DNA of 64,000 nt from Simplicispira sp. 125 (GTDB lineage: Bacteria > Pseudomonadota > Gammaproteobacteria > Burkholderiales > Burkholderiaceae_C). The notes beneath the pieces were generated by a model. That model was given only the letters and a program-made list of their open reading frames with translations. It had not been told where the DNA came from and did no database searches. Every line of letters begins with the position of its first letter. Position 1 is the stretch's first letter. A program made the position numbers and the translations under genes. The DNA lies in NCBI RefSeq assembly GCF_003096555.1, contig NZ_QEKM01000001.1:2728001-2792000 (forward strand). Reading direction: 5' to 3'. Of this stretch, positions 9,119-50,157 are shown piece after piece.

Positions 9119-10027
9119 TCAGCTCAGCACCACGCTGGACAAGCGGCGGCGGTAGGTGGCCACCACGGGGTCTTCGGGCGGGATCTGGCCGTCGGCCACC
9201 TTGACCTTGGGCGGCTCGATGATTTCGAGGATGGCGACATAGGCCTTGCGTGCCGCCTCGTCGCTCCAGGCCTTGTCGCGCATCAAGATTTCCAACAACT
9301 CGTCCATGGCGTCCTGCCAGCGCTGCTGCACCATGAGCCAGCGCGCACGGCCAAAGCGGGCCTCGAAGTCGCGCTTGTTGGCGGTGATTTTTGCATCAAA
9401 CTGGGCTCCAGCGTCCGCCCCAAAATCGTTAACAGCTACAAAATCAAGAGCATCCATCCAGACCTTGAGGGCGCCCAGCTTGCGCGATCCGGGCGCCTTG
9501 GCGATCACCGGGGCGAAGGCCACCTTGGCGTCGTCGTCCCGTCCGAGCTGCAGCAGCAGCTTGACGTAGTCAAAGCGCGCATCGTCGTTGGCCGGGTCGG
9601 TGGCGACGGCGTGCTGGAGCTTTTCCAGCGCGGTATCGGTGTCGCCTTCGGCCAGCGCATCGAGCGCCTGCTCTTCCTCTTCTTCGGCCAGGGCTTCTTC
9701 GGCGCTGGGCACATGCTTGTCGAGGAATTCGCGCACCTTGCCCTCGGGCAGCGCGCCCGTGAAGCCATCGACGGGCTGGCCGTTCATCAGCAGCGCGCAG
9801 GTGGGAATGCTGCGGATGCCGAACATGGCGGCGAGCTGCTGCTCCTGGTCAGAGTCGACCTTGGCGAGCTTGAAACGGCCTGCATATTCGGTTTCGAGCT
9901 TTTCCAGCACGGGCCCGAGGGACTTGCAGGGACCGCACCAGGGCGCCCAAAAGTCCACCAGCACGGGTACAGTCATGGAGGCGGCAACGACCTCGGCTTC
10001 AAAGTTTTCTACGGTGATGTCGATCAT
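9119..10027 (-). CDS. cnoX: Thioredoxin/TPR fusion co-chaperone, CnoX (YbbN) type
   Basis: 302 aa. The N-terminal thioredoxin domain (about residues 1-108) has an intact WCGPC active site at residues 30-34, unlike the E. coli CnoX site, so it may be redox active. The C-terminal half is a TPR-like helical region (about 115-300). The family protects unfolded proteins under oxidising stress and hands them to chaperones. Codons for about residues 193-208 lie inside a dispersed repeat copy (9403-9451) and give the peptide DALDFVAVNDFGADAGA. It is divergent from purE across 98 bp. Confidence 0.88.
   Translation of the reverse strand: MIDITVENFEAEVVAASMTVPVLVDFWAPWCGPCKSLGPVLEKLETEYAGRFKLAKVDSDQEQQLAAMFGIRSIPTCALLMNGQPVDGFTGALPEGKVREFLDKHVPSAEEALAEEEEEQALDALAEGDTDTALEKLQHAVATDPANDDARFDYVKLLLQLGRDDDAKVAFAPVIAKAPGSRKLGALKVWMDALDFVAVNDFGADAGAQFDAKITANKRDFEARFGRARWLMVQQRWQDAMDELLEILMRDKAWSDEAARKAYVAILEIIEPPKVKVADGQIPPEDPVVATYRRRLSSVVLS
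9403..9451 (+). repeat. Dispersed palindromic repeat, copy G (inside cnoX)
   Basis: Matches the left core GGCTCCAGCG and the right part AACAGCTACAAAATCAAGAGC of the repeat family described in findings. It is the most diverged copy, and the arms around the loop no longer pair well. It is read through in frame by cnoX on the opposite strand. Confidence 0.65.
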
Positions 10028-10125
10028 GTGGCAATGGCCCCTTTCAAGCAGCGGGCTGCAAAAAGTAAAATCACGGGTTCACACTCGCGGCAGGCGGCCC
10101 AGTATGGCGCTTTGCCCCTCACACT

Positions 10126-10620
10126 ATGACACCCATCCAGATCGGTGTGGTCATGGGTTCCAGCAGCGACTGGGACACCATGCAGCACGCAGTGGAGATT
10201 CTCCAGCAATTCGGCATCGCGCACGAGGCCCGCGTGGTCTCGGCCCACCGCATGCCCGACGACATGTTCGCCTACGCCGAGGCCGCGTGCGGCCGGGGCC
10301 TCAAGGCCATCATTGCCGGTGCGGGCGGCGCCGCCCACCTGCCGGGCATGATCGCCGCCAAAACCACCGTGCCCGTGCTGGGCGTGCCCGTGGCCAGCCG
10401 CCATCTGCAAGGGGTGGACTCGCTGCACAGCATTGTGCAGATGCCCAAGGGCATTCCGGTGGCCACCTTCGCCATCGGCACCGCCGGGGCGGCCAACGCG
10501 GCCCTGTTTGCCGTGGCATTGCTGGCCAATGAAGACTCCGCACTGCGCCAGCGCCTGGAGGCCTTTCGCACTGCGCAAACCGAAGCGGCACGCGCCATGG
10601 CCTTGCCGCCCGCCGCATGA
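10126..10620 (+). CDS. purE: N5-carboxyaminoimidazole ribonucleotide mutase
   Basis: Class I PurE, which converts N5-CAIR to CAIR in purine synthesis. It is 164 aa with the N-terminal motif [24 protein letters not shown] in the active site, and [14 protein letters not shown]. Its stop overlaps the purK start by 4 nt (ATGA), giving translational coupling. This form works with PurK rather than using CO2 directly. Confidence 0.97.
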
Positions 10621-11876
10621 CCGCGCACCCCATACACCCGCTTGCGCCCGGCAGCACCCTCGGAGTGCTGGGCGGCGGCCAGCTGGGCCGCATGTTCGTG
10701 CATGCCGCGCAGACCATGGGCTACTTCACGGCCGTGCTCGACCAGGACCCCACCAGCCCGGCCGGGCTGGTGAGCCACCACCACATCCAGACCGGCTACG
10801 AAGATCCCGATGGCCTGGCCCAGTTGGCCGCACTGTGCGACGCGGTGACCACCGAGTTCGAGAACGTGCCCGCCGTCTCGCTGGCCGCGCTGGCCGGGCA
10901 GTGCCCTGTGGCACCCGCCGCGCGTGCCGTGGCCGTGGCGCAGGACCGCGCCCAGGAGAAGGCCCATTTCGTGCGCTGCGGCGTGCCCTGCGCGCCCTAT
11001 GCGGTGATCGAAACAGCCGAACAGCTGGCCGCCGTGTCGGCGGATACGAGCGCCGCGCCGGGCCGCCCCAAGCAAGCGAGCGCCCCCTCGGGGGGCAGCG
11101 AACCACACGCAGTGGGGAGCGTGGGGGCATCACTCATTCCCGGGATTCTGAAAACGGCCCGCATGGGCTACGACGGCAAGGGCCAGGTGCGCGTGCAAAC
11201 CGCCGCCGAACTGGCCGCCGCATGGGCATCGGTCGGCCAGGTGCCCTGCGTGCTCGAAAAAATGCTGCCGCTGGCGCTGGAATGCTCGGTGATCGTGGCG
11301 CGCGGGCAGGATGGCGACATTGTCCATTTGCCCGTACAGCGCAACCTGCACCGGGACGGCATCCTCGCCGTCACCGAGGTTTATGAAGAAAATATGCCTC
11401 CAGCGCTTACCAGTCAAGCGGTAGAAGCTGCGAAATCAATAGCAACAGAGCTGCAGTATGTCGGCGTTCTGTGCGTGGAGTTCTTTGTGCTGCAGGACAG
11501 CAGCCTGGTCGTCAACGAGATCGCCCCGCGCCCGCACAACAGCGGCCACTACAGCCAGAACGCCTGCGATGTGTCGCAGTTTGAACTGCAAGTGCGCACG
11601 CTGGCCGGCCTGCCGCTGGTGCAGCCGCGCCAGCACAGCGCCGCCGTCATGCTGAACCTGCTGGGCGACCTGTGGTTTGCCCACGGCGACACGGCCCAGA
11701 CACCCCCTTGGGCCGAGGTGCTGGCCCTGCCGGGCACGCACCTGCACCTGTACGGCAAAAGCCTGGCCAAGCACGGCCGCAAGATGGGGCACCTGAACAT
11801 CACCGCGCCCACGGCCGCTGCGGCGCGCGCCACGGCCTTGCAGGCAGCGGCGCTGCTGGGCATTGCCCCGTTCTGA
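10617..11876 (+). CDS. purK: N5-carboxyaminoimidazole ribonucleotide synthase carrying two repeat-derived segments
   Basis: ATP-grasp enzyme that makes N5-CAIR from AIR, bicarbonate and ATP. It is 419 aa, noticeably longer than the roughly 355 aa of the E. coli enzyme. The N-terminal [20 protein letters not shown] and the downstream [17 protein letters not shown] are canonical, as is [20 protein letters not shown]. Two stretches look repeat-derived: residues about 147-171 ([17 protein letters not shown] and onward), inserted just before the ATP-grasp [13 protein letters not shown] motif, and residues about 259-276 ([18 protein letters not shown]), encoded by a palindromic repeat copy. The frame stays open through both, so the gene looks functional. 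Confidence 0.95.
11057..11128 (+). repeat. GC-rich hairpin repeat inserted in frame in purK
   Basis: A 72-bp GC-rich segment containing the hairpin GCCCCCTCGGGGGGC (about 11082-11096) and ending in a G-rich AGTGGGGAGCGTGGGGGC stretch. It encodes about 25 Ala/Gly/Pro/Ser residues absent from ordinary PurK. I recognise it as resembling a GC-rich repeat common between genes in Acidovorax-type genomes; that recollection needs a database check. Confidence 0.6.
11390..11443 (+). repeat. Dispersed palindromic repeat, copy E (inside purK)
   Basis: Shares CCTCCAGCGCTTACCAGTCA, then AAGCGGTAGAAGCTGCGAAA and TCAATAGC, with the family consensus. It is translated in the sense direction as part of PurK without disrupting the frame. 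Confidence 0.75.
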
Positions 11877-11884
11877 AGACGCAC

Positions 11885-12892
11885 ATGATTCTGGATGGCT
11901 ACCTGCCCTCTGCCATTGCCAGCGCGGCCCGCACCTTGCGCAGTGGCGGCCTTGTTGGTCTGCCCACCGAAACGGTCTATGGCCTGGCGGCCGACGCATC
12001 CAACGACGCTGCTGTGGCGCAAATATTTGCGGCCAAGGGGCGCCCCAACGACCACCCGCTCATCGTCCATGTGGCCCACGCCACCGGCATAACGCATTTC
12101 GCACGCGATGTTCCCGCTTTTGCCCAGGCACTGGTGGATGCTTTCTGGCCCGGCCCGCTCACGTTAATTTTGCCGCGCCTGCCCGGCGCAGCCACGGCGG
12201 CCACGGGCGGACAGGACAGCGTGGGCCTGCGCTGCCCCGCCCACCCCGTAGCCCACGCGCTGCTGGCAGCGTGTGCTGCGCACGACGAAGCAGGTGCCCC
12301 ACCCGTGTGGGGCCTGGCCGCACCCAGCGCCAACCGCTTTGGCCGCGTCAGCCCCACCACCGCGCAGCATGTGCAGGACGAACTGGGCGAAGCCCTGCTG
12401 GTGCTGGACGGAGGCCCCTGCACCGTGGGCATTGAAAGCACCATCGTCGACTGCACACGGGGCGTCCCCGTGCTGCTGCGCCCTGGTGCCATCACCCGCG
12501 AACAAATCGAAGCTGCCTGCGGCCTGCGCCCCCTTTCCCGGGATGAACTGCCGACGCTCACACCGCGTGCCTCGGGCACCCTGGAGGCGCATTACGCGCC
12601 CACGGCGACGGTGCGGCTGATGAATGCCAAAGCACTGCAGACGGGCCTGGACTTGTTGGGCGCCGATGCCGCACACCTGGCGGTGTATGCGCGTGCAGCA
12701 CTGCGCAGCACATCGCGCCAGGTGCTGCTGCGCCGCATGCCCGAAGACCCTGAAGCGACCGCTCAACAACTGTTTGCGGTGCTGCGCAGCTTCGACGATG
12801 CGGGCGCCCGCCTCATCTGGATCGAAACCCCGCCCGACACGCCCCCCTGGGAAGGCGTGCGCGACCGACTGCAGCGGGCTGCGGCTGCCTGA
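11885..12892 (+). CDS. tsaC: L-threonylcarbamoyladenylate synthase, Sua5 type
   Basis: Makes threonylcarbamoyl-AMP, the first step of the t6A37 tRNA modification. It is 335 aa, so it carries the N-terminal YrdC domain (GLVGLPTETVYGLAADA, KGRPNDHPLIVHV) plus the C-terminal Sua5 domain, i.e. the long Sua5/YwlC form. The start at 11885 is chosen because the YrdC domain begins there; the open frame upstream overlaps purK. It begins 8 bp after purK. tsaB, which acts later in the same pathway, is 5 kb downstream. Confidence 0.93.
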   Translation: MILDGYLPSAIASAARTLRSGGLVGLPTETVYGLAADASNDAAVAQIFAAKGRPNDHPLIVHVAHATGITHFARDVPAFAQALVDAFWPGPLTLILPRLPGAATAATGGQDSVGLRCPAHPVAHALLAACAAHDEAGAPPVWGLAAPSANRFGRVSPTTAQHVQDELGEALLVLDGGPCTVGIESTIVDCTRGVPVLLRPGAITREQIEAACGLRPLSRDELPTLTPRASGTLEAHYAPTATVRLMNAKALQTGLDLLGADAAHLAVYARAALRSTSRQVLLRRMPEDPEATAQQLFAVLRSFDDAGARLIWIETPPDTPPWEGVRDRLQRAAAA

Positions 12893-12944
12893 TGGGCTCG
12901 CGGCCAGATCGTTACACTAGCAAACCCTGATTGGAGAACACACC

Positions 12945-13898
12945 ATGGCAGCAAATTGGATGCGCCGCACCGCCCTGGTCGCCGCATGTGCGTCGGCCGT
13001 ACTTTTGGCGGCCTGCGGCTCCAGTACCACCGAATCGGCGATCACGCCCGATCGGTTCATTGCGTTTGGAGACGCCTACAGCGATGTCGGCCAGAAAGGC
13101 AGCCGCTATACGGTGAATAACGGCACCGTGAACAACTGGACGCTGCAAGTGGCATCCCACTACCAGAAGACGCTGGCACCGGTGTCCGCCGGTGGTCTGA
13201 GCTATGCGCAAGGCAATGCCCGCATTTCCGCCCAGCCCGATGCCGCAGGGGATGCCAGCACTCCCACGATTACCGCGCAAATCGACAGCTTTTTGGCCAG
13301 CAAAACCTTTGCTGCCAACGATATCGTGCTGCTCAATGGCGGCATCAGCGACCTCATCGTTGGCATGGCTGCCGTGCGCGCCGGCACTTTGAGCGCCACC
13401 GACTATGTAGCGCAGGCCCGCCAGAACGGCAAGGATCTGGCGGCGCAGATCCTCCGCCTGGTGAAAGCTGGCGCCCCCCATGTGGTGGTGTCCGGCACCT
13501 ACGACCTCAGCAAAACCCCCTGGGGCCTGACGACCGGCCAAGAATCCCTGCTCAGCGAGGCCAGCAGCCGGTTCAACGAATCTCTGCTCATCGCCATCAA
13601 CGACCTCGGCGCCCATGTGCTGTATATCGATACGGCGTACTACGTGAACGTGTTCACCTCGACGCCTGCGGCTTTTTCGTTCTCTTATGCGCAGAAGGCT
13701 GCCTGCACCTCCGTCGATCCGGGCAACGGCATTGGGATCGGTGTCGGCCAGGTCAATTCGGCCCTGTGCACCGCGTCCACGCTGGTGCCTGGCACCAGTG
13801 CAGACTCCTACGTGTTTGCCGACAATGTGTACCTGAGCCCCTCGGCGCACCGCCAGTTGGGCACCTTCGCTTACGACAAGCTGCGCGCCCGCTGGTAA
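12945..13898 (+). CDS. SGNH/GDSL-esterase-like lipoprotein with degenerate active site
   Basis: 317 aa. The N-terminus has a signal with lipobox VLLAAC (Cys 24), so it is likely an anchored lipoprotein. The fold resembles GDSL/SGNH esterases: FIAFGDAYSDVGQ aligns with block I (FGDSxSD) but the nucleophile Ser is Ala at residue 44; block III reads LNGGISDLI instead of GGND; and the C-terminal YLSPSAHRQLG lacks the usual DxxHP. It may therefore be a pseudo-enzyme with a binding role. RBS TTGGAGAA precedes the ATG. A second SGNH gene with an intact catalytic set lies just beyond ompW on the other strand. Confidence 0.8.
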   Translation: MAANWMRRTALVAACASAVLLAACGSSTTESAITPDRFIAFGDAYSDVGQKGSRYTVNNGTVNNWTLQVASHYQKTLAPVSAGGLSYAQGNARISAQPDAAGDASTPTITAQIDSFLASKTFAANDIVLLNGGISDLIVGMAAVRAGTLSATDYVAQARQNGKDLAAQILRLVKAGAPHVVVSGTYDLSKTPWGLTTGQESLLSEASSRFNESLLIAINDLGAHVLYIDTAYYVNVFTSTPAAFSFSYAQKAACTSVDPGNGIGIGVGQVNSALCTASTLVPGTSADSYVFADNVYLSPSAHRQLGTFAYDKLRARW

Positions 13899-13992
13899 TT
13901 TACTTTCTAAACCGCTGCTTCGCCTTGCCGTGCTGCAACACTGTCTGCGGCTTCGCGCCTAGGAGGCTGTCGGACTAAGCCCGGCCGGCCGC

Positions 13993-14031
13993 CACAACAA
14001 AAAACCGCCTCCAAGGCGGTTTTTTGTTGTG
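13993..14031. terminator. Bidirectional Rho-independent terminator
   Basis: A long symmetrical hairpin: A-rich arm plus ACCGCCT, a short loop, AGGCGGT, then TTTTTTGTTGTG. The T-run and matching A-run let it work for both the SGNH gene (plus) and ompW (minus), which converge here. Confidence 0.9.
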
Positions 14032-14047
14032 CGAACCGACCTTAAGG

Positions 14048-14725
14048 TCAAAAACGATAGCCGATCCCGACGGTAAATGTGTTGGGGTTGAGCTTGACGT
14101 CGATATGCTGTCCGGTCGAGAGCGTGTTGCGCGTCTTGACGAAGGTCTTGTAGTACGCAAGGTCTACGAACCAGCGGTCGTTCAAGGCGATGTTCACGCC
14201 GATCTGCGGCGTGAGACCGAACTTGGATTCTGCGCTGAGCAGTGTAGGGTTTGCGGGGGTCCCGCCGGTCAGGCCGGTCAAGGCCGCCGTGCCGCGTTCC
14301 TTGAAGAACTTGGCATAGGTCAGCCCCAGGCCCACGTAGGGGCGCACCTTGGCGTCAGCCTCCAAAAAGCGGTACTGCGCAAATACGGTGATGGGCAGTG
14401 CCTTGACCTCCCCGATCTTGCCGACACCCGCAATCGCTCCGGCGCCCACGGTATCGTGCTTGAAGGGCAATGCCAGGGGCACATCGACGGCCCAATGGTT
14501 GGTGACCATGTAGGTGATACCGCCAGACAGCTGCGTGTCTGCCAGTACATCGACCTTGGTGCCAGTAAAGCTCGGGGCCGACAGGTCACCACTGCTGACC
14601 TGGGGAGAAATATGCGTCACGCCGCCACGCACCAGCCAGCTACCGACGGTTTGCGCCTGTGCCATGCCAGCACAAGCCAGCAGGGCGGCGCCGGCGATCC
14701 AGACGATGGTTTTGTTGGTTTTCAT
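14048..14725 (-). CDS. ompW: OmpW-family outer membrane protein
   Basis: Small eight-stranded beta-barrel porin family. It is 225 aa with a cleavable signal (MKTNKTIVWIAGAALLACAG to AQAQ). SWLVRGGVTHISP at the mature start, VRPYVGLGLTYAKFF and the C-terminal FTVGIGYRF (terminal Phe, as in outer-membrane barrels) are typical. The start at 14725 is preferred over 14746 because it begins the signal peptide directly. It starts 21 bp after the SGNH esterase gene and is probably in its operon. Confidence 0.92.
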   Translation of the reverse strand: MKTNKTIVWIAGAALLACAGMAQAQTVGSWLVRGGVTHISPQVSSGDLSAPSFTGTKVDVLADTQLSGGITYMVTNHWAVDVPLALPFKHDTVGAGAIAGVGKIGEVKALPITVFAQYRFLEADAKVRPYVGLGLTYAKFFKERGTAALTGLTGGTPANPTLLSAESKFGLTPQIGVNIALNDRWFVDLAYYKTFVKTRNTLSTGQHIDVKLNPNTFTVGIGYRF

Positions 14726-14746
14726 GGATGTTCCTTGCAACGACAT

Positions 14747-15889
14747 TTACAGCCAGCCTGCCTGGGCCAGCGAACGCGAAACCAGCTGGCTCAGCAACTG
14801 ATGGCCATAAGGAGTGGGGTGGAAACTATCGGAGAAGGCATAGGTCTTCCACCAGTCAGCTCCACCCGTGGCGCCGACTGGCGGCGTCATGGCCGATAGC
14901 GCTGCGGCAGTGCAGGTGGGGAAGGTGTATGTGGGCAAACCATCGCCACCCACGCCGGTGATCGGGCAAGCCGTGCCCTTGGCATTGGTCAGGCCAAATT
15001 GCTCGGGTTTCGCGACCTGGTCGTTCAGCGAGGTGTAGAAGTCCACCACCACCACCTTGCTGTTGCCGGCAAAGCGGGCAGCCAACTGCTTGTTGAATGC
15101 CTCGACCCAGGCTTTCACCAACCCCTGCACCTGTGCACTGGTTGCAGCACCTGCCGTGGCAGCGATGCCACCGAGCAACTGTTGCAGGCGCGGCGTCTGG
15201 TCGATGCCAGGCATGTTCAGCACGGCCACGCGCATCGCGCCCTTGTTCAGTGCATTGGTGTCAATGGCGCCATGGAACTTGTCGGCCAAGGCCATCATGT
15301 AGGCGCCCCCCACCTGGGCCATTCCCGCGGCTCCACCGGCCAGCGCTGCATCCACCGTAGCGGGCGGCAGCAGGGTCTTGAGTACGGCGCTGTAGCTGGC
15401 ACCACCGTCCTTGGAGGCTGAGAGGTATGCGCCGACCAGATCGGCTGCATCATTGCCGCCGCCGTCGATCAGCAGCAGGTCACTGGCGGCAAAGCCTTCA
15501 GCGCCCGCGTCACTGATCTGTTGGGTGATCGATACGGGCGATGTCGGTGCCGTGAAGTTGTTGATACGCCCGCCGCCCACCGCATAGTTGGTGCAGCCGC
15601 TTGCGTTGTTGAACGCGGTGCCCGTAAACACGTAACGCGGGCACAGCGTGGTGCCGTAGCTGCTGGCAATGCGCTCGGGCCAGATAGGCGTGGAGCCAGC
15701 GCCCGTAGGTGCGTCTCCTTGCACGGTGAACTTGAGCCCGAAGGTGCCGCTGTCGGCCAGGCTGTCACCCATGACCTTGATGGTCTTGACCGGTGCCACC
15801 GGCTCGGTATCCGATCCGCCACCGCCACAACCGGCCAGCACCCACGCTGCCGCCAGAGAAATCCACAATGCCTTGCGCTGGTAACCCAT
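14747..15889 (-). CDS. SGNH/GDSL lipoprotein esterase
   Basis: 380-aa putative secreted or outer-membrane-anchored lipase/esterase. The signal ends in lipobox VLAGC (Cys 21), followed by a Gly stretch. The complete SGNH set is visible: VMGDSLADSGTF (nucleophile Ser 43), LLIDGGGNDAADL (block III) and FSDSFHPTPYGHQLL (catalytic Asp-His). The start at 15889 begins the signal peptide; the frame extends slightly upstream. Its substrate is unknown. It is co-directional with ompW. Confidence 0.9.
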   Translation of the reverse strand: MGYQRKALWISLAAAWVLAGCGGGGSDTEPVAPVKTIKVMGDSLADSGTFGLKFTVQGDAPTGAGSTPIWPERIASSYGTTLCPRYVFTGTAFNNASGCTNYAVGGGRINNFTAPTSPVSITQQISDAGAEGFAASDLLLIDGGGNDAADLVGAYLSASKDGGASYSAVLKTLLPPATVDAALAGGAAGMAQVGGAYMMALADKFHGAIDTNALNKGAMRVAVLNMPGIDQTPRLQQLLGGIAATAGAATSAQVQGLVKAWVEAFNKQLAARFAGNSKVVVVDFYTSLNDQVAKPEQFGLTNAKGTACPITGVGGDGLPTYTFPTCTAAALSAMTPPVGATGGADWWKTYAFSDSFHPTPYGHQLLSQLVSRSLAQAGWL

Positions 15890-16083
15890 GCTTTTCACTC
15901 CTGAAAATGAAAAATAGAACGCCCGTTCTATTTGTCGCAAATGTTACAGCGAGGCGTCTGGAAATTTTAGCGGGTAAGTACGGATGTGGTTTTGCACCTA
16001 CGGCACACCGCCCACCGTCGGCGTGCAAATCGGTGGTGGGCGACGGCAGGCAGATGCAAGCCTGAAAAAGGCCGTTGTGCGGC

Positions 16084-16487: not shown

Positions 16488-16497
16488 ACAGGGGGCA

Positions 16498-20210: not shown

Positions 20211-21200
20211 ATGCTCAACATCTTCACGCTTGCCAATGGGCGCCTCGTTCAGGAAGAGATCGAGTCGCTCGAAGAGCTGTCCAAATTCCAGCCCATCTGG
20301 GTGGACCTGGAATCTCCGACGATCAACGAAAAACGCTGGGTCTCGCAGTATTACGGCCTGTCCATTCCCGAAGATGCGATGGACGAGGACATCGAAGAGT
20401 CGGCGCGTTTTTACGAAGAAGACAACGGCGAGTTGCACATCCGCAGCGACTTCCTGATCGACGACCACGACAAGCCGCGCTCGGTGCGCGTGGCCTTCAT
20501 TCTGAACCTGACCAATCCCAACCTGAAAAGCAAGGGTGTGCTGTTCTCGATCCACGACGAGGACGTGCCGGTCTTTCGCCTGCTGCGCCTGCGTGCACGC
20601 CGCGCACCGGGCCTCATCGAGGACGCCCGCGAGGTGCTGCTCAAACTGTTCGACGCCGACGCAGAATACTCGGCCGACACACTCGAAGGCATTTACGACG
20701 ACCTGGAAAAGGTGAGTACCCAAGTGCTATCGGGCGATGTGACCGACGAACGCGCGGGCGAGGTGCTGGGCGCCATTGCACGCCAGGAAGACTTGAACGG
20801 GCGCATCCGCCGCAACGTGATGGACACACGCCGCGCCGTCAGCTTCATGATGCGCAGCAAAATGCTCAACGCCGAGCAGTTCGAAGAAGCCCGGCAGATC
20901 CTGCGCGACATCGAATCGCTCGACAGCCACACCGCCTTCCTGTTCGACAAGATCAACTTCTTGATGGATGCCACGGTCGGTTTCATCAACATCAACCAGA
21001 ACAGGATCATCAAGATCTTTTCGGTGGCCAGCGTGGCCCTGCTGCCGCCTACCTTGATTGCCAGCATCTACGGCATGAACTTCAAGTACATGCCCGAGCT
21101 CGACTGGAGCCTGGGCTACCCCTACGTGCTGACGCTGATGGTGGCCAGCGCGCTGGGGCCGATGTGGTATTTCAGAAAGCGTGGCTGGCTCAAGGGATAG
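20211..21200 (+). CDS. corA: Magnesium/cobalt transporter CorA
   Basis: Inner-membrane pentameric Mg2+ channel. It is 329 aa with a large acidic cytoplasmic N-terminal domain and two C-terminal membrane segments (about residues 266-288 and 300-320). The selectivity signature YGMNF (in LIASIYGMNFKYMPE) follows the first membrane segment. Basic residues (RKRGWLKG) close the C-terminus. RBS GGGAGTGAGCC precedes the ATG. Its expression may be controlled by the leader ORF and hairpin upstream. Confidence 0.96.
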   Translation: MLNIFTLANGRLVQEEIESLEELSKFQPIWVDLESPTINEKRWVSQYYGLSIPEDAMDEDIEESARFYEEDNGELHIRSDFLIDDHDKPRSVRVAFILNLTNPNLKSKGVLFSIHDEDVPVFRLLRLRARRAPGLIEDAREVLLKLFDADAEYSADTLEGIYDDLEKVSTQVLSGDVTDERAGEVLGAIARQEDLNGRIRRNVMDTRRAVSFMMRSKMLNAEQFEEARQILRDIESLDSHTAFLFDKINFLMDATVGFININQNRIIKIFSVASVALLPPTLIASIYGMNFKYMPELDWSLGYPYVLTLMVASALGPMWYFRKRGWLKG

Positions 21201-21208
21201 TTTTAAGC

Positions 21209-21264
21209 AAAATTAGCCTCTAACGCCCTACTGACAAGCGTTAGCAGCTTCTTTTTTTATAGCG
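21209..21264 (+). repeat. Dispersed palindromic repeat, copy B (corA/mtnN junction)
   Basis: The core CTAACGC...GCGTTAG palindrome is followed by CAGCTTCTTTTTTTATAGC. It lies between convergent corA and mtnN, can fold as a hairpin followed by a T-run, and so may terminate corA. The last codons and the TAA stop of mtnN fall inside it. Confidence 0.75.
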
Positions 21265-22006
21265 ATTCCAGCAAACTGCGGACGATGTGGTCTGCATAGC
21301 GGCTGGCTACAGTCTGGATGAACACGGGGAAGTCCACATGGGCATCGTCGTCGGCCCGGTCCGAGATGGTGCGCACAGCGGCAAACGGCACAGCATAGTC
21401 CAGGCACACCTGGGCCACGGCGGCGCCTTCCATCTCCACCGCCAGCACATCGTGCCCAGCCGCCACCAGCGGTTCGCGCAGCGCACGGGACACCTGGGCA
21501 CAGGTCACAAAGCGGTCACCGCTGGCCATCAGCCCCTGGTGCAAGCGCGGAGGAATCCCGTCTGAATGGATATAAAAACCAGCTCCAGCGCCTACCAGAC
21601 AAGCGCTGACAGCTCTCGAAAGATGAGCAGACAACCCCGCATCGCAGGGCAGGCGCACGCCCGCGTAGCCCGGCACCAGCCAGCGCTCGAACAGGGGCGA
21701 AGCGTCCATGTCGTGCTGCACATAGTCGTGCGCCACCACCACATCACCCACGCGCACGCCTTCGCCCACACCACCCGCCACACCGGTGAAGACAATGCGC
21801 GCCACGCCAAAGCGCTCCACCAGCGCGGCGGCCGTGGTTGCCGCTGCCACTTTGCCAATGCCCGAGAGCGCCAGCACCACGGGCTTGCCATGGAGATCAC
21901 CCCGCCAGAAGGTGCGGCCCGCATGCACGAGCCTCTGGGGCTTCTCCAAATAGCCCAAAAGGCCGGACTGTTCTTCGGGAAGGGCGCTGAGGATGGCTGT
22001 GGTCAT
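21257..22006 (-). CDS. mtnN: 5'-methylthioadenosine/S-adenosylhomocysteine nucleosidase
   Basis: Cleaves adenine from MTA or SAH in methionine salvage. It is 249 aa. It starts MTTAILSALPEEQSGLLGYL; GIGKVAAATTAAALVERFG, VFTGVAGGVGEGVRVGDVVV, VLAVEMEGAAVAQVC and the catalytic Asp in VRTISDRAD are conserved. The frame is open upstream but the MTN domain begins at 22006. Residues about 127-145 (RAVSACLVGAGAGFYI) are encoded by an antisense repeat copy (F), and the 3' end lies in another copy (B), so the gene is touched twice by the same repeat family. Confidence 0.92.
   Translation of the reverse strand: MTTAILSALPEEQSGLLGYLEKPQRLVHAGRTFWRGDLHGKPVVLALSGIGKVAAATTAAALVERFGVARIVFTGVAGGVGEGVRVGDVVVAHDYVQHDMDASPLFERWLVPGYAGVRLPCDAGLSAHLSRAVSACLVGAGAGFYIHSDGIPPRLHQGLMASGDRFVTCAQVSRALREPLVAAGHDVLAVEMEGAAVAQVCLDYAVPFAAVRTISDRADDDAHVDFPVFIQTVASRYADHIVRSLLESL
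21571..21628 (+). repeat. Dispersed palindromic repeat, copy F (inside mtnN)
   Basis: Contains AGCTCCAGCGCCTACCAGAC, then AAGCGCTGACAGCTCTCGAA. The outer arms CAGCGC and GCGCTG pair. mtnN reads it through in frame on the opposite strand. Confidence 0.78.
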
Positions 22007-34306: not shown

Positions 34307-35106
34307 GCAGCCCCATCCCTTCGGGGAGGCGACGCACCGTCGACGGAGGACTCCAAGGATTCAGCTGCGTTTTCGTGGATCTTTCTGTTGCGTTGGCGTT
34401 GCTGCTCCACGGCCTCCATCAGCAGGCCTGCAGCCACGGCGGCGGCGATGGCCACCAGGATGTTGAGCTTGAGTGGCAAAGCGAAAGCCGCCACGGCCGC
34501 CGTCCCGGCGACCGCTGTGGCCAGCCAGGTGGCGCGATCGAACAACAACGACAACAGCACACCCAACAGGGCCAGTACCCCGGCAAAGCCCAGCCCCCAG
34601 GAAAGCGGTATGGCATTGGCCAGCACAATGCCCGCGACCGATGGCACTTGCCAGGCCAGCCAGTTGACGGAAGCCGCGCCCCAGAAAAACGGCACCTGTT
34701 CGGGCACGGGCCGGGGTTCGGGAAAGCGCTTCATGAAGGCCACGAAGATCACGTCTCCGCTGAAATACCCGATGGCCAGCCGCTGGCGCAAAGGCAAATA
34801 CTGGAAGTAGCTGCGCCACATGCTGCTGAAAATGACAAAACGCAGATTGACACAGGCTGCGGTCAGCCACACCACCCACAGCGGCGCACCTACGGCCAGC
34901 AGCGGGAGCACCGCCAACTGGGCGCTGCCGGCGTACACCAGAATCGACATCAGCAGCGCGACCGGCACCGACATGCCACTCTTGACCATGGCAACGCCCG
35001 TCACCAAACCCCAGGCCCCCACGCCTACACCCGTGCCCAACATGTCGGTCACGCCCTGGCGAAAGGACGGATGGCGCACCGTGACGCCAACCGCGCGCCA
35101 AGTCAC
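34303..35106 (-). CDS. azlC: AzlC-family branched-chain amino acid permease
   Basis: 267-aa inner-membrane large subunit of the AzlCD exporter. The family hallmark region [40 protein letters not shown] and [11 protein letters not shown] are present. A hydrophilic C-terminal tail of about 35 residues (rich in R, E, S) extends past the last membrane segment. It overlaps fmt and azlD by 4 bp each, so the three genes are translationally coupled. Confidence 0.9.
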
Positions 35107-36089
35107 CCGCCGCTCCCGGTCTGTGCAGACGGGCCCAGCACCATGCCCGGCAGCAAGGGAAATCCCCGCACAAAATCGGCGGCTGCCAAACGTTTTCCGC
35201 CGGCGCGCTGCAGCACCGTCAAGCGCAGGGCACCTTCACCACAGGCAACCGTGATACCTTGAGAATTTACAGATAAAATCTGGCCGCAACGCTTATCTGT
35301 CAAGCGCTGGAAGCTATCAATTTCATAATCAACCAATTTAATGAGCTCACCATCCAAGGTCGTGCTCGCGCCGGGAAATGGCGTCAGCGCACGAATGTGA
35401 CGGCCAATCGCCTCGGCTGGTTGCGTCCAGTCCACGCTGCTCTCCGCCTTATCGATCTTGTGGGCATAAGTCACGCCTTCGACCGGTTGCGGCACGCGAT
35501 GCAGGTCGGCACCTTGCATCTGCACCAACGCCTGGACAATGAGGCGCCCGCCTTGTTCGGCCAGCCGGTCGTGCAGGGTAGCGGTCGTGTCCGTGGACAA
35601 GATGGGCATGGTCTCGCTCAGCAGCATGTCACCAGTGTCCAGGCCCGCGTCCATTTGCATGATGGTCACGCCCGTCTGCGCATCACCCGCCTCGATGGCA
35701 CGGTGGATGGGAGCGGCACCACGCCATCGCGGCAAAAGGCTGGCGTGGATATTCAGGCACCCTCGGGCTGGCAGATCCAGTACCCACTGCGGCAAGATCA
35801 GGCCATAAGCGGCCACCACCATCACATCCGCCCGGACGGCCTCCAAAACGGATTGGGCACGCGCCGCATCCTCCGGAAACTTGCCGTCCAAACGCAGGCT
35901 GCGTGGCTGCTCGACCGCGATGCCCTGCTCCAGTGCATATTGCTTGACCGGCGACGCTTGTAACTTCAGCCCGCGCCCGGCGGGGCGATCTGGTTGCGTC
36001 AACACCAGGGGCACACTGAAGCCTGCCTGCACCAGCGCCTGCAATGCAACACGGGCAAACTCCGGCGTACCGGCGAAAACAATGTTCAT
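35103..36089 (-). CDS. fmt: Methionyl-tRNA formyltransferase
   Basis: 328-aa enzyme that formylates initiator Met-tRNA. It starts [20 protein letters not shown]; the catalytic loop is [20 protein letters not shown], followed by [17 protein letters not shown]. In the C-terminal tRNA-binding domain, residues about 254-272 ([19 protein letters not shown]) are encoded by a dispersed repeat copy, giving a sequence unlike other Fmt proteins; the flanking [14 protein letters not shown] is normal. def follows the usual partner arrangement, separated by a small lipoprotein. Confidence 0.95.
35273..35330 (+). repeat. Dispersed palindromic repeat, copy D (inside fmt)
   Basis: Contains CGCTTATCTGTCAAGCGCTG and GAAGCTATCAATTTCATAAT. 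The AAGCG/CGCTT arms pair around a 7-nt loop. Read through in frame on the minus strand by fmt. Confidence 0.78.
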
Positions 36090-45043: not shown

Positions 45044-45117
45044 GATCGCACTTTTACCTCAAGGACAGGGACAGGACAGACTGCAATGCAGCCGTCCCCC
45101 GGTTTCACGGGTCTTGT

Positions 45118-45453
45118 TTATTTGATGGTGCCCTTGGGCAGCACCTGCACCACGGCGGCGCGCTGCACCTGCACTTCCACACCCGAGGCAATCTCGATGT
45201 GCAGGTATTGCTCGGACATGCGGGCAACCTTGCCCAGAATACCGCCACCGATCACCACTTCGTCGCCCTTGGCGATGGCTTCGATCATGGCGCGGTGCTC
45301 TTTCTGGCGCTTCATCTGGGGGCGGATCATGACGAAGTACAGCACCACGAACATCAGCACCAGAGGCAGCATGCCCGTGAGCGAAGACATGATGTCACTG
45401 CCACCAGCGGCGGCGGCAGGAGCGGTCTGGGCGAAAGCGGAAGAAATAAACAC
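45118..45453 (-). CDS. yajC: Preprotein translocase subunit YajC
   Basis: 111-aa small membrane protein of the SecDF-YajC complex. It has one membrane segment (LPLVLMFVVLYFVMIRPQMK) followed by a cytoplasmic part with KGDEVVIGGGILGKVARMSE. I chose a GTG start at 45453, giving (M)FISSAFAQTAPA, because a GGAG ribosome-binding site sits 9 nt upstream; the ATG further upstream lacks support. Confidence 0.9.
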   Translation of the reverse strand: MFISSAFAQTAPAAAAGGSDIMSSLTGMLPLVLMFVVLYFVMIRPQMKRQKEHRAMIEAIAKGDEVVIGGGILGKVARMSEQYLHIEIASGVEVQVQRAAVVQVLPKGTIK

Positions 45454-45617
45454 AGGAAGAACTCCAGAATGGATGGTCAATAGGGACACGCGACGACTCG
45501 TGCAGGCGGGAGACGCCCGCACGGCGCGGAATCGGGCATTGTATGCGGGTACCTCGCACGCTTGCCAAGAGCTCTTTTTAGTACCTCACACACAAGCGTT
45601 TGTTCAGATATATAAAC

Positions 45618-45672
45618 AAAAATAGCCTCCATCGCTTACCCATCAAGCGCTGGAAGCTATCAAAACAAGAGC
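45618..45672 (+). repeat. Dispersed palindromic repeat, copy A (intergenic)
   Basis: The best copy: AAAAATAGCCTCCATCGCTT, ACCCATCAAGCGCTGGAAGC and TATCAAAACAAGAGC. It lies downstream of the ferredoxin oxidoreductase stop, 165 bp before yajC. Confidence 0.82.
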
Positions 45673-45706
45673 ATCTCACCGAATGCGTCAAATTGCCAGC
45701 CGCTGC

Positions 45707-48700
45707 TCAAGCCACCAGACGCTCCGCCGGACTGCGCCATTGGGCCATCAGCCGGTCCCATTGGGCGCGTGCCGTCGTCAAGTGGCGCTCCTTGACATGG
45801 CCGTAGCCCCGGATGTGTTCGGGAATCTGCGCAATCTCCACCGCCAGGCTCAGGCGCTCAGGCGCCAGGCCGGCGATCAGCTCCTCAATGCATTCGCGGT
45901 ACTGCACGATCAATGCGCGCTCCATGCGGCGCTCTTCGGTTTTACCGAAGACGTCGAGCGCACTGCCCCGCAGCCCCTTCAGGCGTGACAGCATCCCCAG
46001 GGCCTTGCGCATCCAGGGGCCAAACGATTGCTTGACCAACTCGCCCTTGTCATTGCGCTTGGCCAGCAGGGGTGGCGCCATGTGGTGAACAATCTTGTAG
46101 TCGCCCTCGAACATGCTGGCAATGCGGTCGGTGAACGCCTTGTCGGTGTGCAGGCGCGCCACTTCGTACTCGTCCTTGTACGCCATGAGTTTGAAAAGAT
46201 ACTTGCCCACGGCTTCGGTCAGGCGCGTTCCCGTGCCCAGCCGCGACTCGGCGGCCCGCACCTTTTCGACAAAGGTCTGGTATTGCGCTGCGTAAGCCGC
46301 ACTCTGGTAACCGGTAAGGAATTCGACGCGCTGCGACACCACTTCCGCCAGCGTGGGCTTCTTGACGAAGGCAATCACCTGCGCTGCCTGGAACAAAGAC
46401 TGCACCGCCGCCAGATCATGCGCGCAGCGGCGACCCCATTCAAAGGCGGCCTTGTTGTTCTCCACCTGCACACCATTGAGTTCCATGGCGCGCATCAGTG
46501 CGCTCAGCGACAGCGGCACCCGGCCTTTTTGCCAGGCAAAGCCCAGCAGCAAGGGATTGGTGTAAATGCTGTCGCCCAGCAGCTGCATAGCGACCTGTTC
46601 GGCGTCAAAGCGCCCCACCAGGGCCTCGCCCACAGCGGCCACCACAGCGCTCTCGCAATTGCCGCCCGGGAACTGCCAGTCGGGGTTGGTGACGAACGCC
46701 GCCGTGGGCGTGCCATGGGTGTTGAGCGCCACAAAGGTACGGCCCGGCTGCATGACGGCCAGGGTGTACTTGTGGGCCGCCACGATAGCGTCGCAGCCGA
46801 TCACCAGGTCGGCCTTGGCGGTATCTACCTTGGTGGTGAAGATGGCATCCGGGGTATTGGCGATCTGGATATGGCTCCAGGTGGCGCCGCCCTTTTGCGC
46901 CAGGCCACCCGCATCCTGCGTGACCACACCCTTGCCGTCCAGGTGCGCGGCCATGCCCAGCAATGAGCCAATGGTGATGACGCCCGTGCCGCCCACGCCG
47001 CCCACCACAATGCCCCAGGCGCTGTCGGCCTGCGGCAGCACCGGTTCGGGCAGCGGCGGCAGGCTGGAGAGGTCTCCCTTCTTCTCCTTTTTGGGTTTCT
47101 TGAGCTTGCCGCCTTCGATGGTGACAAAGCTGGGGCAAAAACCGTTGACGCACGAGTAGTCCTTGTTGCAAGTGCTCTGGTTGATGCGCCGCTTGCGGCC
47201 GAACGGGGTTTCCACCGGCTCCACGCTCAGGCAGTTTGATTTCACCGAGCAATCGCCACAGCCCTCGCACACGGCTTCGTTGATGACCACCGTTTTGTCG
47301 GGCGTGGCGAGCAAACCGCGCTTGCGGCGGCGGCGTTTTTCGGTGGCGCAGGTCTGGTCGTAGATCAGCACGCTGCAGCCCTTGATCTCGCGCAGTTCGC
47401 GCTGGATACGGTCCAGCTCGTCGCGGTGGTGCACCGTGACACCGTCGGCCAGCGCCACGCCCGCGTACTTCTGCGGCTCGTCGGTGACGATGACGATTTT
47501 GACGGCGCCTTCGGATTTGACGCTGTGCATGATCTGCAGCACCGAGTGCCCCTCGGGCCGCTCGCCCACCTGCTGGCCACCGGTCATGGCCACGGCGTCG
47601 TTGTACAAAATTTTGTAGGTAATGTTCACCCCGGCAGCAATGCTCTGACGAATTGCCAACAGACCGCTGTGGAAGTACGTGCCATCGCCCAGGTTGGCAA
47701 ACACATGCGCGTCCTTGGTGAACGGCGCCTGCCCCACCCAGGTCACACCCTCGCCGCCCATTTGCGTGAAGGTGCTGGTACTGCGGTCCATCCACACCGT
47801 CATATAGTGGCAGCCAATACCGGCCACGGCGCGCGAGCCTTCGGGTACGCGGGTGCTGGTGTTGTGCGGGCAACCGCTGCAAAACCAGGGTGCGCGCTCA
47901 CCGGTGTCTGCCTTCAGCTCGGTCATGGCGCGCTCGCGGGCGTCGATGGTGGCGATGCGCGACTCCATCCGGGCCACGATGTCGTCGGACACGCCTAGCT
48001 TCTTCAGCCGCTTGGCAATCGCCTTGGCGATGATGGCCGGCGTGAGGTCGGCCTTGGCGCGCAGCAGCCAGTTCTGGCTGGGGTTGGGCATGGACCATTC
48101 GCCACACTGGCCGTTCTCACCCTCGGCCTCGTCGAACTTGCCCAACACGTTGGGACGCACATCGGCGCGCCAGTTGTACAGCTCTTCCTTGAGCTGGTAT
48201 TCAATGACCTGGCGTTTTTCTTCCACCACCAGAATTTCCTGCAGGCCCTGGGCAAAATCGCGCGTGATGGTGGCTTCGAGCGGCCACACCACGTTGACCT
48301 TGTGCACACGGATGCCCAGGCTGCGGCAGGTGTCGTCATCGAGGCCCAGATCGACCAGCGCCTGGCGCGTGTCGTTGTAGGCCTTGCCGCTGGCGATGAT
48401 GCCGAAGCGATCATGCGGGCCTTCGATGACGTTATAGTTGAGCTTGTTGGCACGCACGTAGGCCAGGGCCGCGTACCACTTGTAATCCATCAGGCGCGCT
48501 TCCTGTTCCAGCGGGGCATCGGGCCAGCGGATGTGGAGGCCGCCCGGGGGCATGGCAAAGTCTTCGGGCAGGACGATCTGCACGCGGTCGGGGTCCACCG
48601 AGATGCTGCTGGACGACTCCACCACTTCCTGGATGGTCTTCATGCCCGACCATACGCCCGAGAAACGGCTCATGGCGAAAGCGTGCAGGCCCATGTCGAG

Positions 48701-49270
48701 GATGTCCTGCACATTGCTCGGGAAGAACACCGGCGTGCCGCAGGCCTTGAAGATGTGGTCGCTCTGGTGCGGCGCCGTGCTGCTCTTGCTGATATGGTCG
48801 TCGCCGGCGATGGCGATCACGCCGCCATGCTTGGCGGTGCCGGCCATGTTGGCGTGCTTGAACACGTCGGAGCAGCGGTCCACGCCAGGACCTTTGCCGT
48901 ACCAGATGCCGAAGACGCCGTCGTACTTTTTGCTTTGTGGGTACAGGTCGAGCTGCTGCGTGCCCCAGACGGCCGTGGCACCCAGCTCCTCGTTCACACC
49001 GGGCTGGAAGACGATGTGGTTCTCGGCCAGGTGCTTCTTGGCGGCCCACAGCGCCTGGTCGTAGGTGCCCAGCGGGCTGCCCCTGTAGCCGCTGATGAAC
49101 CCGGCCGTGTTCAGGCCGGCCACGGCGTCACGCTGGCGCTGCAGCATGGGCAGGCGCACCAGGGCCTGCACGCCGCTCATGAAGGCACGGCCTTCGCCCA
49201 GGGTGTATTTGTCGTCGAGCGTGACGGTTTCCAGGGCTTTGCGGATGTGTTCAGGCAGTGGAGCGTTCAC
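45707..49270 (-). CDS. Fused indolepyruvate (2-oxoacid) ferredoxin oxidoreductase
   Basis: 1187-aa fused TPP/iron-sulfur enzyme that oxidatively decarboxylates aryl or branched 2-oxoacids (likely indolepyruvate) to acyl-CoA with reduced ferredoxin. It has an N-terminal pyruvate-type domain (GLNTAGFISGYRGSPLGTY), a TPP-binding region (RAVAGIGCHYMTVW), CEGCGDCSVKSNC for a 4Fe-4S cluster, and a C-terminal gamma domain (GVGGTGVITIGSLLG). I take GTG at 49270 as the start because the conserved N-terminus MNAPLPEHIRKALETVTLDD begins there. A near-identical copy of this N-terminus lies just upstream in another frame. It is divergent from an Lrp-type regulator. Confidence 0.9.
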   Translation of the reverse strand: MNAPLPEHIRKALETVTLDDKYTLGEGRAFMSGVQALVRLPMLQRQRDAVAGLNTAGFISGYRGSPLGTYDQALWAAKKHLAENHIVFQPGVNEELGATAVWGTQQLDLYPQSKKYDGVFGIWYGKGPGVDRCSDVFKHANMAGTAKHGGVIAIAGDDHISKSSTAPHQSDHIFKACGTPVFFPSNVQDILDMGLHAFAMSRFSGVWSGMKTIQEVVESSSSISVDPDRVQIVLPEDFAMPPGGLHIRWPDAPLEQEARLMDYKWYAALAYVRANKLNYNVIEGPHDRFGIIASGKAYNDTRQALVDLGLDDDTCRSLGIRVHKVNVVWPLEATITRDFAQGLQEILVVEEKRQVIEYQLKEELYNWRADVRPNVLGKFDEAEGENGQCGEWSMPNPSQNWLLRAKADLTPAIIAKAIAKRLKKLGVSDDIVARMESRIATIDARERAMTELKADTGERAPWFCSGCPHNTSTRVPEGSRAVAGIGCHYMTVWMDRSTSTFTQMGGEGVTWVGQAPFTKDAHVFANLGDGTYFHSGLLAIRQSIAAGVNITYKILYNDAVAMTGGQQVGERPEGHSVLQIMHSVKSEGAVKIVIVTDEPQKYAGVALADGVTVHHRDELDRIQRELREIKGCSVLIYDQTCATEKRRRRKRGLLATPDKTVVINEAVCEGCGDCSVKSNCLSVEPVETPFGRKRRINQSTCNKDYSCVNGFCPSFVTIEGGKLKKPKKEKKGDLSSLPPLPEPVLPQADSAWGIVVGGVGGTGVITIGSLLGMAAHLDGKGVVTQDAGGLAQKGGATWSHIQIANTPDAIFTTKVDTAKADLVIGCDAIVAAHKYTLAVMQPGRTFVALNTHGTPTAAFVTNPDWQFPGGNCESAVVAAVGEALVGRFDAEQVAMQLLGDSIYTNPLLLGFAWQKGRVPLSLSALMRAMELNGVQVENNKAAFEWGRRCAHDLAAVQSLFQAAQVIAFVKKPTLAEVVSQRVEFLTGYQSAAYAAQYQTFVEKVRAAESRLGTGTRLTEAVGKYLFKLMAYKDEYEVARLHTDKAFTDRIASMFEGDYKIVHHMAPPLLAKRNDKGELVKQSFGPWMRKALGMLSRLKGLRGSALDVFGKTEERRMERALIVQYRECIEELIAGLAPERLSLAVEIAQIPEHIRGYGHVKERHLTTARAQWDRLMAQWRSPAERLVA

Positions 49271-49425
49271 AGTGCACCCCCTTCGCAAGCACACTCGACG
49301 CCAAATACACTGCGCCCGGCTGCGCCGCTCGCTGCGTAGTTGTGGCGCAACCCGCGTTGCGGGTTGTCGTCGAGCGTGACGGTTTCCAGGGCCTTGCGGA
49401 TGTGCTCGGGCAAAGGGGCGTTCAT
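49267..49425 (-). CDS. Upstream ORF duplicating the first 20 codons of the ferredoxin oxidoreductase
   Basis: 52-codon ORF starting ATG at 49425, preceded by a GGAGA ribosome-binding site. Its first 20 residues are identical to those of the main gene; the rest (including a hairpin CAACCCGC/GCGGGTTG, 49348-49366) is unrelated. Its TGA overlaps the main GTG start (GTGA), so translation could be coupled. It may be a real leader peptide or a by-product of a partial duplication. Confidence 0.55.
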   Translation of the reverse strand: MNAPLPEHIRKALETVTLDDNPQRGLRHNYAASGAAGRSVFGVECACEGGAL

Positions 49426-49614
49426 GGCGTTGTCTCCAGTGACATTTTGGTATTCCGCACCTTGTGGGGCGGTGGTGGGGCAGATCCTGGCGCCCGGTTA
49501 GGGAGGCCACTCTAGTGTGCAGAGGAGTGTATGTCCCCAGCGCTGATATGTCTTTGCGTTCTATGCCGCATTCAAGCTACTCTTAGAAAGAATCTTTCTT
49601 TTCAAGGCCATAAA

Positions 49615-50100
49615 TTGAATACTTTGGACAAATTCGACCTTGCCATCCTCGGCGAACTGCAAAAAGAGGCGCGCCTGACGAATGCGGAACTGGCCCAGCG
49701 TATCGGCCTGTCGGCGGCCCCGTGCTGGCGCCGCGTGCGCGCGCTGGAAGAAGAAGGCTTCATCAAAGGCTACCGCGCCGAAATCGACCGCCACAAGATT
49801 GGCCTGGGCGTGCTGGCCTTTGTGCGCCTGGACGCGGATCGCAATACCGGCGGCCTGACGCGGTCGATGGAAGACGCGATCCGCCAGATCCCCGAGGTGG
49901 TGTCCTGCCACTACATCAGTGGCACGGGCACGTTCGAGCTGCAGGTGGTGGCGCGCGACCTCGACAGCTTTTCGCAGTTTGCGCGCGACGTACTTTTGCA
50001 CCTGCCGAATGTGAAAGACATGCACACCAGCTTTTCGCTGGGCGAGGTGAAGGCCAGCAGCGCGTTGCCGCTCACCCACCTGACCAAAGCAGCAACCTGA
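49615..50100 (+). CDS. Lrp/AsnC-family transcriptional regulator
   Basis: 161 aa. An N-terminal helix-turn-helix (LDKFDLAILGELQKEARLTN, AELAQRIGLSAAPCWRRVRA) precedes a C-terminal AsnC/RAM ligand domain (residues about 65-145, ending GEVKASSALP). I chose TTG at 49615 because it gives the family N-terminus and has AAGG upstream; the ATG at 49531 would add 28 atypical residues. It is divergent from the ferredoxin oxidoreductase, which it probably regulates, as Lrp-type genes often sit next to ior genes. Confidence 0.88.
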   Translation: MNTLDKFDLAILGELQKEARLTNAELAQRIGLSAAPCWRRVRALEEEGFIKGYRAEIDRHKIGLGVLAFVRLDADRNTGGLTRSMEDAIRQIPEVVSCHYISGTGTFELQVVARDLDSFSQFARDVLLHLPNVKDMHTSFSLGEVKASSALPLTHLTKAAT

Positions 50101-50105
50101 AAACT

Positions 50106-50157
50106 CTCTTTTTAATAGCTGTTCACGCTTACTGCATAAGCGTTAGAGGCCATTTTT
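50106..50157 (-). repeat. Dispersed palindromic repeat, copy C (lrp/mltA junction)
   Basis: On the minus strand: AAAAATGGCCTCTAACGCTT, then ATGCAGTAAGCGTGAACAGC and TATT. Its CGCTTA/TAAGCG hairpin followed by T residues lies between convergent lrp and mltA and could terminate transcription. Confidence 0.76.

Follow-up and report, generated by a model that had tools for sequence, protein, structure and literature searches.

A near-palindromic 65-bp motif that appears to have evolved in place within core genes of Comamonadaceae, a candidate DNA uptake sequence

How does a palindromic DNA repeat come to be read in frame within several conserved enzymes of one bacterium? The question is raised by a 64-kb stretch (the window; G000:C1:2728001-2792000) of the one-contig, 3,966,897-bp genome of Simplicispira sp. 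125 (G000), in which the original prediction placed seven copies of a repeat family of about 55 bp and likened them to the Rickettsia palindromic elements, i.e., palindromic repeats read in frame in protein genes, where their insertion makes the protein longer. All seven copies are present, scoring 52–76 bits with a 65-column weight matrix, six in the + orientation and the copy at 50106-50157 in the - orientation, although the unit of the family proved to be ~65 bp rather than ~55 bp (e.g., 11379-11443 instead of 11390-11443). As had been reported, four copies lie in the open frames of cnoX, purK, mtnN and fmt, on differing strands and in differing phases, and the other three lie downstream of genes, two between convergent genes and one downstream of the gene at 45707-49510. 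The comparisons with relatives described below lend good support to the evolution of a putative DNA-recognition motif in place, unlike the Rickettsia elements. We consider it on balance probable that this ~65-bp motif is functional and, most likely, the DNA uptake sequence (DUS) of naturally transformable Comamonadaceae.

The training set of the weight matrix comprised 108 distinct G000 sequences, taken from the window, from 30 loci found by pattern and from 20 stretches of 20 kb at even spacing, and copies were counted in a sample of 464 kb comprising the window and the 20 stretches. This sample holds 71 copies at 18 bits or more, compared to none in the reversed sequence, from which we extrapolate by proportion to ~600 copies per genome. 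A 48-base consensus matched the window copies at 28–45 of 48 positions on their own strand, while the best place in the window outside the copies reached 26/48 and five mononucleotide shuffles (one strand) reached maxima of 25–26; the weakest copies by this measure, in cnoX (28) and at the corA/mtnN junction (29), depend on the trained motif instead. When the matrix was built from the 31 intergenic copies only, the cnoX, purK, mtnN and fmt copies still scored 44–62 bits, and a fresh scan of the 464 kb recovered the identical 71 copies at a threshold of 15 bits, at which neither reversed nor triplet-shuffled sequence gave any (the reversed control gave 2 matches at 10 bits and 8 at 5 bits); the gene-internal copies are therefore members of the same family independently of training. 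Across the G000 genome, a 21-base mid-repeat pattern with up to 2 mismatches matched 134 times on the forward and 120 times on the reverse strand (backwards control 0), and a strict half-motif pattern matched 382 times (control 0), far more than chance. The motif is strongly over-represented in the chromosome. No Rfam family was found in the window at gathering scores.

Relatives were compared for five gene-internal copies and one intergenic copy (the corA/mtnN junction). The orthologue sets of PurK, Fmt, MtnN and a CCA-adding enzyme comprised 30 loci apiece, counting that of G000 itself, and the CnoX set gave 20 rows for 22 loci, L032 and L180 being one genome (19 rows for 21 loci in the codon test below). 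Excluding G000, we termed relatives motif-bearing (40 bits or more), intermediate (0 to 40 bits) or motif-less (below 0 bits). No indel interrupts the 22-codon site in 70 of the 72 motif-bearing relatives (PurK 21/21, Fmt 10/10, MtnN 15/16, CCA-adding enzyme 13/14 and CnoX 11/11), and indels were seen in 1 of 30 intermediate rows and in 9 of 32 motif-less rows, the other 23 having the same length. PurK, Fmt and CnoX have no indel over the 22 codons in any row, with or without the motif; in MtnN and the CCA-adding enzyme indels occur in other genera, and MtnN also has an indel of three codons in each of two motif-poor genomes of the same genus, G002 and G007. Motif scores are graded among the relatives, running from -55 to 70 in PurK, -52 to 65 in Fmt, -55 to 65 in MtnN, -54 to 56 in the CCA-adding enzyme and -39 to 64 in CnoX. 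The PurK peptide around the site is alike with and without the motif (motif-less form NVPVALAAQAVAAAQSVA), and in Fmt several amino acids differ within a flexible stretch, with steps of the EVDA-to-EIDS type. At the corA/mtnN junction the scores are likewise graded, and the spacers are too divergent to judge insertion. Single sites also turn over: the MtnN copy is missing in G003, G022 and G023 although these genomes are motif-rich. In the five genes examined, the motif arose in place, with no insertion. The Rickettsia-like insertion and exaptation first envisaged is thus refuted for PurK, Fmt, MtnN, CnoX and the CCA-adding enzyme by orthologues that mostly keep their length whether or not they carry the motif, with peptides that are similar or flexible. 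We also observed that many of the Fmt relatives L086-L110 keep mainly the ends of the motif (the ATAGC block and an A/T tract), the middle having diverged.

We then asked how codon choice at these sites relates to the motif. Briefly, each relative's peptide was kept and its codons were redrawn 400 times from G000 usage, in indel-free rows only, with G000's own rows left out and the sites chosen in G000. Among relatives that are not mutually independent and that were grouped by motif score, mean z was 7.3 for PurK (n=21), 4.0 for Fmt (n=10), 6.3 for MtnN (n=15), 6.35 for the CCA-adding enzyme (n=13) and 6.4 for CnoX (n=11) in motif-bearing rows, compared to 0.1 (n=6), 1.0 (n=4), -0.3 (n=3), 0.8 (n=4) and -0.4 (n=6), respectively, in motif-less rows of equal length. 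Because the grouping is itself by score, the intermediate groups matter too, and their mean z was 3.6 to 5.1. Twenty column-permuted motifs gave the motif-bearing rows a mean z of 1.9 (PurK), 1.3 (Fmt), 1.9 (MtnN), 1.75 (CCA-adding enzyme) and 2.4 (CnoX), and the highest permuted mean per gene (2.9–3.9) remained below the true motif in all five genes. Since permuted motifs reach z values of only 1.3–2.4 compared to 4.1–7.2 for the true one in the same test, simple A/T-richness accounts for some of the codon signal and the motif for most of it; A/T-richness as the sole cause was rejected on the same grounds. The conserved TINAIA of the CCA-adding enzyme (TINSIA in five) illustrates the pattern: ACT, AAT and ATA codons are each used in 23 of 23 genes scoring 20 bits or more (G000 included), while all seven motif-less genes begin it with ACC or ACG, the third codon being AAT in 3 of them and the fifth ATA in 1. 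This codon pattern bears the signature of a DNA motif that selection or drive has shaped in place within the limits set by the protein.

The 65-column consensus is aAtTTtaAataAAAatgGCCTCTAGCGCTTatccgtcAAGCGCTAGcAGCTATtaAATtaATAGC. Positions G49-C50-T51 are invariant in all 71 copies, and columns 13-15 and 56-58 are nearly always A or T, the two being interchangeable there. Although the consensus is near-palindromic, only 63.1% of stem cells were paired in a 65-copy alignment (A3), versus 62.5% with shuffled partners (a value equalled or exceeded in 87 of 500 shuffles), and columns 20 and 48 fail to pair in 55 of the 65 copies. The arms show no covariation beyond column composition and no hairpin is maintained, which confines the pairing of the arms described in the original prediction to the consensus. 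With pairing no better than shuffled, the palindrome looks like that of a symmetric recognition site and not like a compensated stem. Half-sites outside full copies numbered, depending on threshold, 3–7 for the right half (reversed control 0–6) and 1–25 for the left half (control 0–25); with so few beyond control, the unit is therefore the whole motif.

Within the sample, 93% of which is predicted coding, 31 copies are intergenic, 26 are gene-internal and 14 lie across gene ends, counts that are approximate because a simple codon-usage open reading frame (ORF) caller was used, which read mtnN on the wrong strand. By this caller, 12 gene-internal copies point in the same direction as their gene and 14 in the opposite direction (11 and 15 with mtnN corrected), and intergenic copies favor convergent over divergent spacers by 9 to 3 (10 to 3 with mtnN corrected). 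Copies are spaced apart in this one genome, with 2 gaps below 1 kb compared to 8.0 expected when the gene/spacer class is kept (P ~0.004). A replication-strand polarity, which had seemed one-sided up to 3 Mb, was dropped: the pattern reads almost alike on the two strands, and both orientations occur among the 71 sampled copies.

Beyond G000, a profile search of 120 relatives gave at least 43 scored candidates in G000 and in 22 of 25 same-genus genomes; the motif-poor genomes of the genus are G002 (2 profile matches), G004 (6) and G007 (4). For counts across 200 family genomes, the strict half-motif pattern with up to 1 mismatch was used instead, yielding at least 40 matches in 30 genomes (710 in the richest) and none in 118, with backwards controls of 0–3 per genome. 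Genomes of the same genus can differ greatly, two of genus g39 having 55 matches and 1. The expectation that related repeats would be widespread in Comamonadaceae, in and between genes, therefore stands, but the motif is patchy across the family. Carriers by name include Acidovorax temperans, A. defluvii, A. delafieldii, Simplicispira, Comamonas granuli and Rhodoferax antarcticus, and copies beyond those used to find the loci were seen in A. temperans (6 in 40 kb), A. defluvii (1 in 24 kb) and A. delafieldii (1 in 16 kb). In numbers that are small, ATGCG replaces AAGCG in 14 exact matches in G198 (versus 2 exact AAGCG) and in 44 in G068, compared to 3 in G000 (versus 382); such variants are dialect-like. 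Three plasmid-like contigs, one of which has conjugation genes, hold 0 copies in 308 kb (42 expected), versus 27 copies in 200 kb of the same two chromosomes, and the sole copy-free stretch among the 20 of 20 kb resembles a defence island. In IMG/VR, 42 viral stretches carry an exact, stricter half-motif, a count without a denominator.

In-place origin, graded intermediates, codon fit, absence from plasmid-like contigs, spacing, patchiness, dialect-like variants and the lack of a maintained stem are together the basis on which we favor an uptake sequence. Under this proposal, a type IV pilus uptake machinery would favor DNA that carries the motif, so that motif-carrying fragments would be taken up and recombined more frequently and, because of this, better-matching alleles would spread, in an uptake-biased drive that would fill spacers first and genes as far as the protein permits. 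The recognizing protein would accordingly belong to the DNA-uptake machinery, and we infer that drive, rather than a benefit per site, maintains the copies. Davidson et al. (2014) report that A. temperans, A. facilis and Verminephrobacter eiseniae are naturally transformable, that transformation of V. eiseniae needs type IV pili and involves selective uptake, and that A. temperans is transformed solely by DNA of its own species (PMC4212676). The passages of that paper on selective transformation identify no signal sequence, and the motif would be the simplest account of the signal behind it. Our literature search found no description of an uptake sequence in Comamonadaceae, which is no proof since subscription papers were mostly outside its coverage.

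Several points weigh against an uptake sequence. Known uptake sequences, which have a 9–12 bp core and span about 29 bp with tracts, are much shorter and less palindromic than the motif. The motif counts per 20-kb stretch in this one genome are not significantly evener than random (variance/mean 0.71, P 0.18), and some of the codon signal is, as the permuted motifs indicate, mere A/T-richness. ComEC was found in 197 of 200 family genomes, including motif-poor ones such as G002 and G004 (it was not found in G007, which is 84% complete), and, being near-universal, competence genes do not explain the patchiness. Nor does a FimT/GspH-like minor pilin correlate cleanly with the motif, one match each being found in motif-poor G002, G004 and G007 and also in motif-rich G011, G013 and G016-G018, and none in G015 and G025. 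Haemophilus and Neisseria have 1,465–1,892 copies, more than the ~600 here (PMC7811141). Finally, no transformation was detected in A. defluvii or A. delafieldii, nor was A. temperans transformed by DNA from either species (PMC4212676); since both carry the motif too, the motif alone cannot explain the transformation barrier, which might reflect homology or sequence divergence, dialect or test conditions.

Two further observations concern candidate uptake genes in G000. A tandem pair of GspH/FimT-like minor pilin genes (G000:C1:1561310-1562237; L372, L358), the number of whose matches varies among species of the genus, is a candidate receptor, and comEC itself holds a motif copy (L064:13006-13070, equal to G000:C1:607006-607070). 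Most of the ComEA model matches listed fall within open frames that are several hundred codons long, which makes this model uninformative, and a pilin-motif pattern had no match in many of the minor-pilin loci, G000's included.

The main rival, which we consider unlikely, is that the motif is the binding site of a chromosome-organizing or nucleoid protein (like parS, matS or SlmA sites), selected in place chromosome-wide. Such a site would equally be chromosome-specific, with copies spaced apart, and would account for in-place origin with codon fit and for a two-fold symmetric consensus without stem covariation; it fits poorly with ~600 copies that show no obvious orientation polarity in the sampled stretches, with a copy number that differs strongly among species of one genus and with turnover at single sites, the known analogues having tens of well-conserved copies. 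Less likely still is another in-place drive that is unrelated to uptake, be it a recombination, repair or gene-conversion hotspot signal or an iterated palindrome like HIP1, a short octamer that also occurs in genes. Such a drive would just as well produce numerous copies that arise in place and are missing from recently acquired DNA, but known recombination signals and HIP1 measure ~8 bp compared to 65 bp with A/T tracts here, and sequence-selective uptake has already been reported for Comamonadaceae. We regard it as very improbable that the motif is an intrinsic terminator or other RNA hairpin with the gene-internal copies as by-products: the preference for convergent spacers and the position of all three intergenic window copies downstream of a gene would suit a terminator, but the arms do not covary, 26 of the 71 copies lie inside genes and do so in both directions, and many Fmt relatives keep only the flanks and not the arms. 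A mobile palindromic element (a Rickettsia palindromic element, a miniature inverted-repeat transposable element or a repetitive extragenic palindrome) that was inserted and then exapted deserves hardly any credence, since the many dispersed copies and four in-frame window copies that suggest it are set against a site length that is the same whether the motif is present or not, against synonymous recoding and graded scores, and against absence from plasmid-like contigs, where mobile elements usually gather.

An uptake sequence finds its closest parallels in two known systems. The uptake signal sequence (USS) of Haemophilus has many copies, a sharp core with A/T tracts and a relatively even distribution that is explained by uptake-biased drive (PMC7811141), and Haemophilus and other Pasteurellaceae carry hundreds to thousands of such motifs with a bias to gene termini (PMC2346458). 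The present motif shares the many copies and the core with A/T tracts but differs in its length of ~65 bp, near-palindromic middle, flanking modules, ~600 copies and bacterial family, and its role in uptake is predicted; that the Apl-USS core ACAAGCGGT (PMC3630211) and the motif both contain CAAGCG is probably chance. In Neisseriaceae, DUS dialects differ by lineage and five family genomes have no obvious DUS (PMC3630211), while DUS are absent from recently acquired genes, serve as terminators when in closely spaced inverted pairs and, in many recent cases, seem to arise via recombination rather than point mutation (PMC2397512). Family genomes without a strict match and absence from plasmid-like and island-like DNA are likewise found here, and the few ATGCG variants are dialect-like. 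The DUS (10–12 bp) differs in that the unit of our motif itself contains the inverted arrangement, in gene-internal copies as well. Unlike HIP1, the highly iterated palindrome of cyanobacteria (PMC6604393), the motif is long and flanked by tracts.

A separate repeat in purK offers an example of the kind of event originally expected of the 65-bp motif. At 11046-11132 (codons about 144-172), a different, GC-rich repeat constitutes a true in-frame 29-codon insertion, which among 16 alignments is common to G000's own gene and G016 only (14 are without it). Its 79-bp relatives occur at 84–86% identity in L029 and at 78% in L070, and L029:857-1186 is a tandem array of at least four copies at 84-bp spacing. 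By published description only, this GC-rich repeat, and not the 65-bp motif, resembles BRE in length and GC, BRE being a Comamonadaceae repeat of about 90 bp (75–91) with some copies in coding sequences, 69% GC in Bordetella, often in tandem and at most 29 per genome (PMC3110155). Window copies and their genes are collected in Table 1; in the upstream part of the 45707-49510 frame, 61-nt direct repeats (49209-49269 and 49364-49424, 90% identical, 155 bp apart) perhaps reflect a duplicated gene start.

Table 1 Motif copies in the window and the genes that contain or adjoin them
Feature	Position	Strand	Remarks
Motif copy in cnoX (gene on -)	9387..9451	+	Codons 193-214; 52.4 bits; 20 orthologue rows from 22 loci, 0 indels
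Motif copy in purK (gene on +)	11379..11443	+	Codons 255-276; 66.0 bits; 30 orthologue loci including own, 0 indels
Motif copy at corA/mtnN convergent junction	21199..21263	+	67.8 bits; right end overlaps mtnN stop and end
Motif copy in mtnN (gene on -)	21564..21628	+	Codons 127-148; 52.4 bits; 30 orthologue loci
Motif copy in fmt (gene on -)	35265..35329	+	Codons 254-275; 64.5 bits; 30 orthologue loci including own, 0 indels
Intergenic motif copy	45608..45672	+	76.3 bits; downstream of 45707-49510 gene (-), upstream of 45118-45522 gene
Intergenic motif copy between convergent genes	50103..50167	-	75.9 bits
cnoX-like gene	9119..10027	-	Thioredoxin domain model; name cnoX from the original prediction
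purK	10617..11876	+	
mtnN	21257..22006	-	
fmt	35103..36089	-	
Lrp-like gene	49531-50100	+	Name from sub-cutoff NCBIfam match
Murein transglycosylase A-like gene	50165-51418	-	Name from sub-cutoff NCBIfam match

Taken jointly, we regard it as only slightly better than an even bet that Comamonadaceae have a DNA uptake sequence of their own, which uptake-biased drive would have carried into both spacers and conserved genes. In core enzymes it would have altered the codons and at places even the amino acids; it would also have split into dialects, disappeared from some lineages and come to underlie the selective transformation of Verminephrobacter and Acidovorax. To our knowledge, uptake sequences are established in two families only, Pasteurellaceae and Neisseriaceae, and the motif proposed here would be the longest and the sole two-fold symmetric one, in a third bacterial family. 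How uptake sequences originate, and whether they persist through drive or selection, has been asked for a long time. A true uptake sequence here would add a third, independent case, which comes from bacteria widespread in soil and water and differs greatly from the others in length and symmetry. The sequence-selective transformation published for Comamonadaceae would thereby gain a named signal, and motif-rich and motif-poor sister species with graded intermediates at the same codons would make the question of drive versus selection testable. Regardless of its function, a 65-bp DNA motif overrides the choice of codons, and at some positions the amino acid, in core enzymes of these bacteria without insertion.

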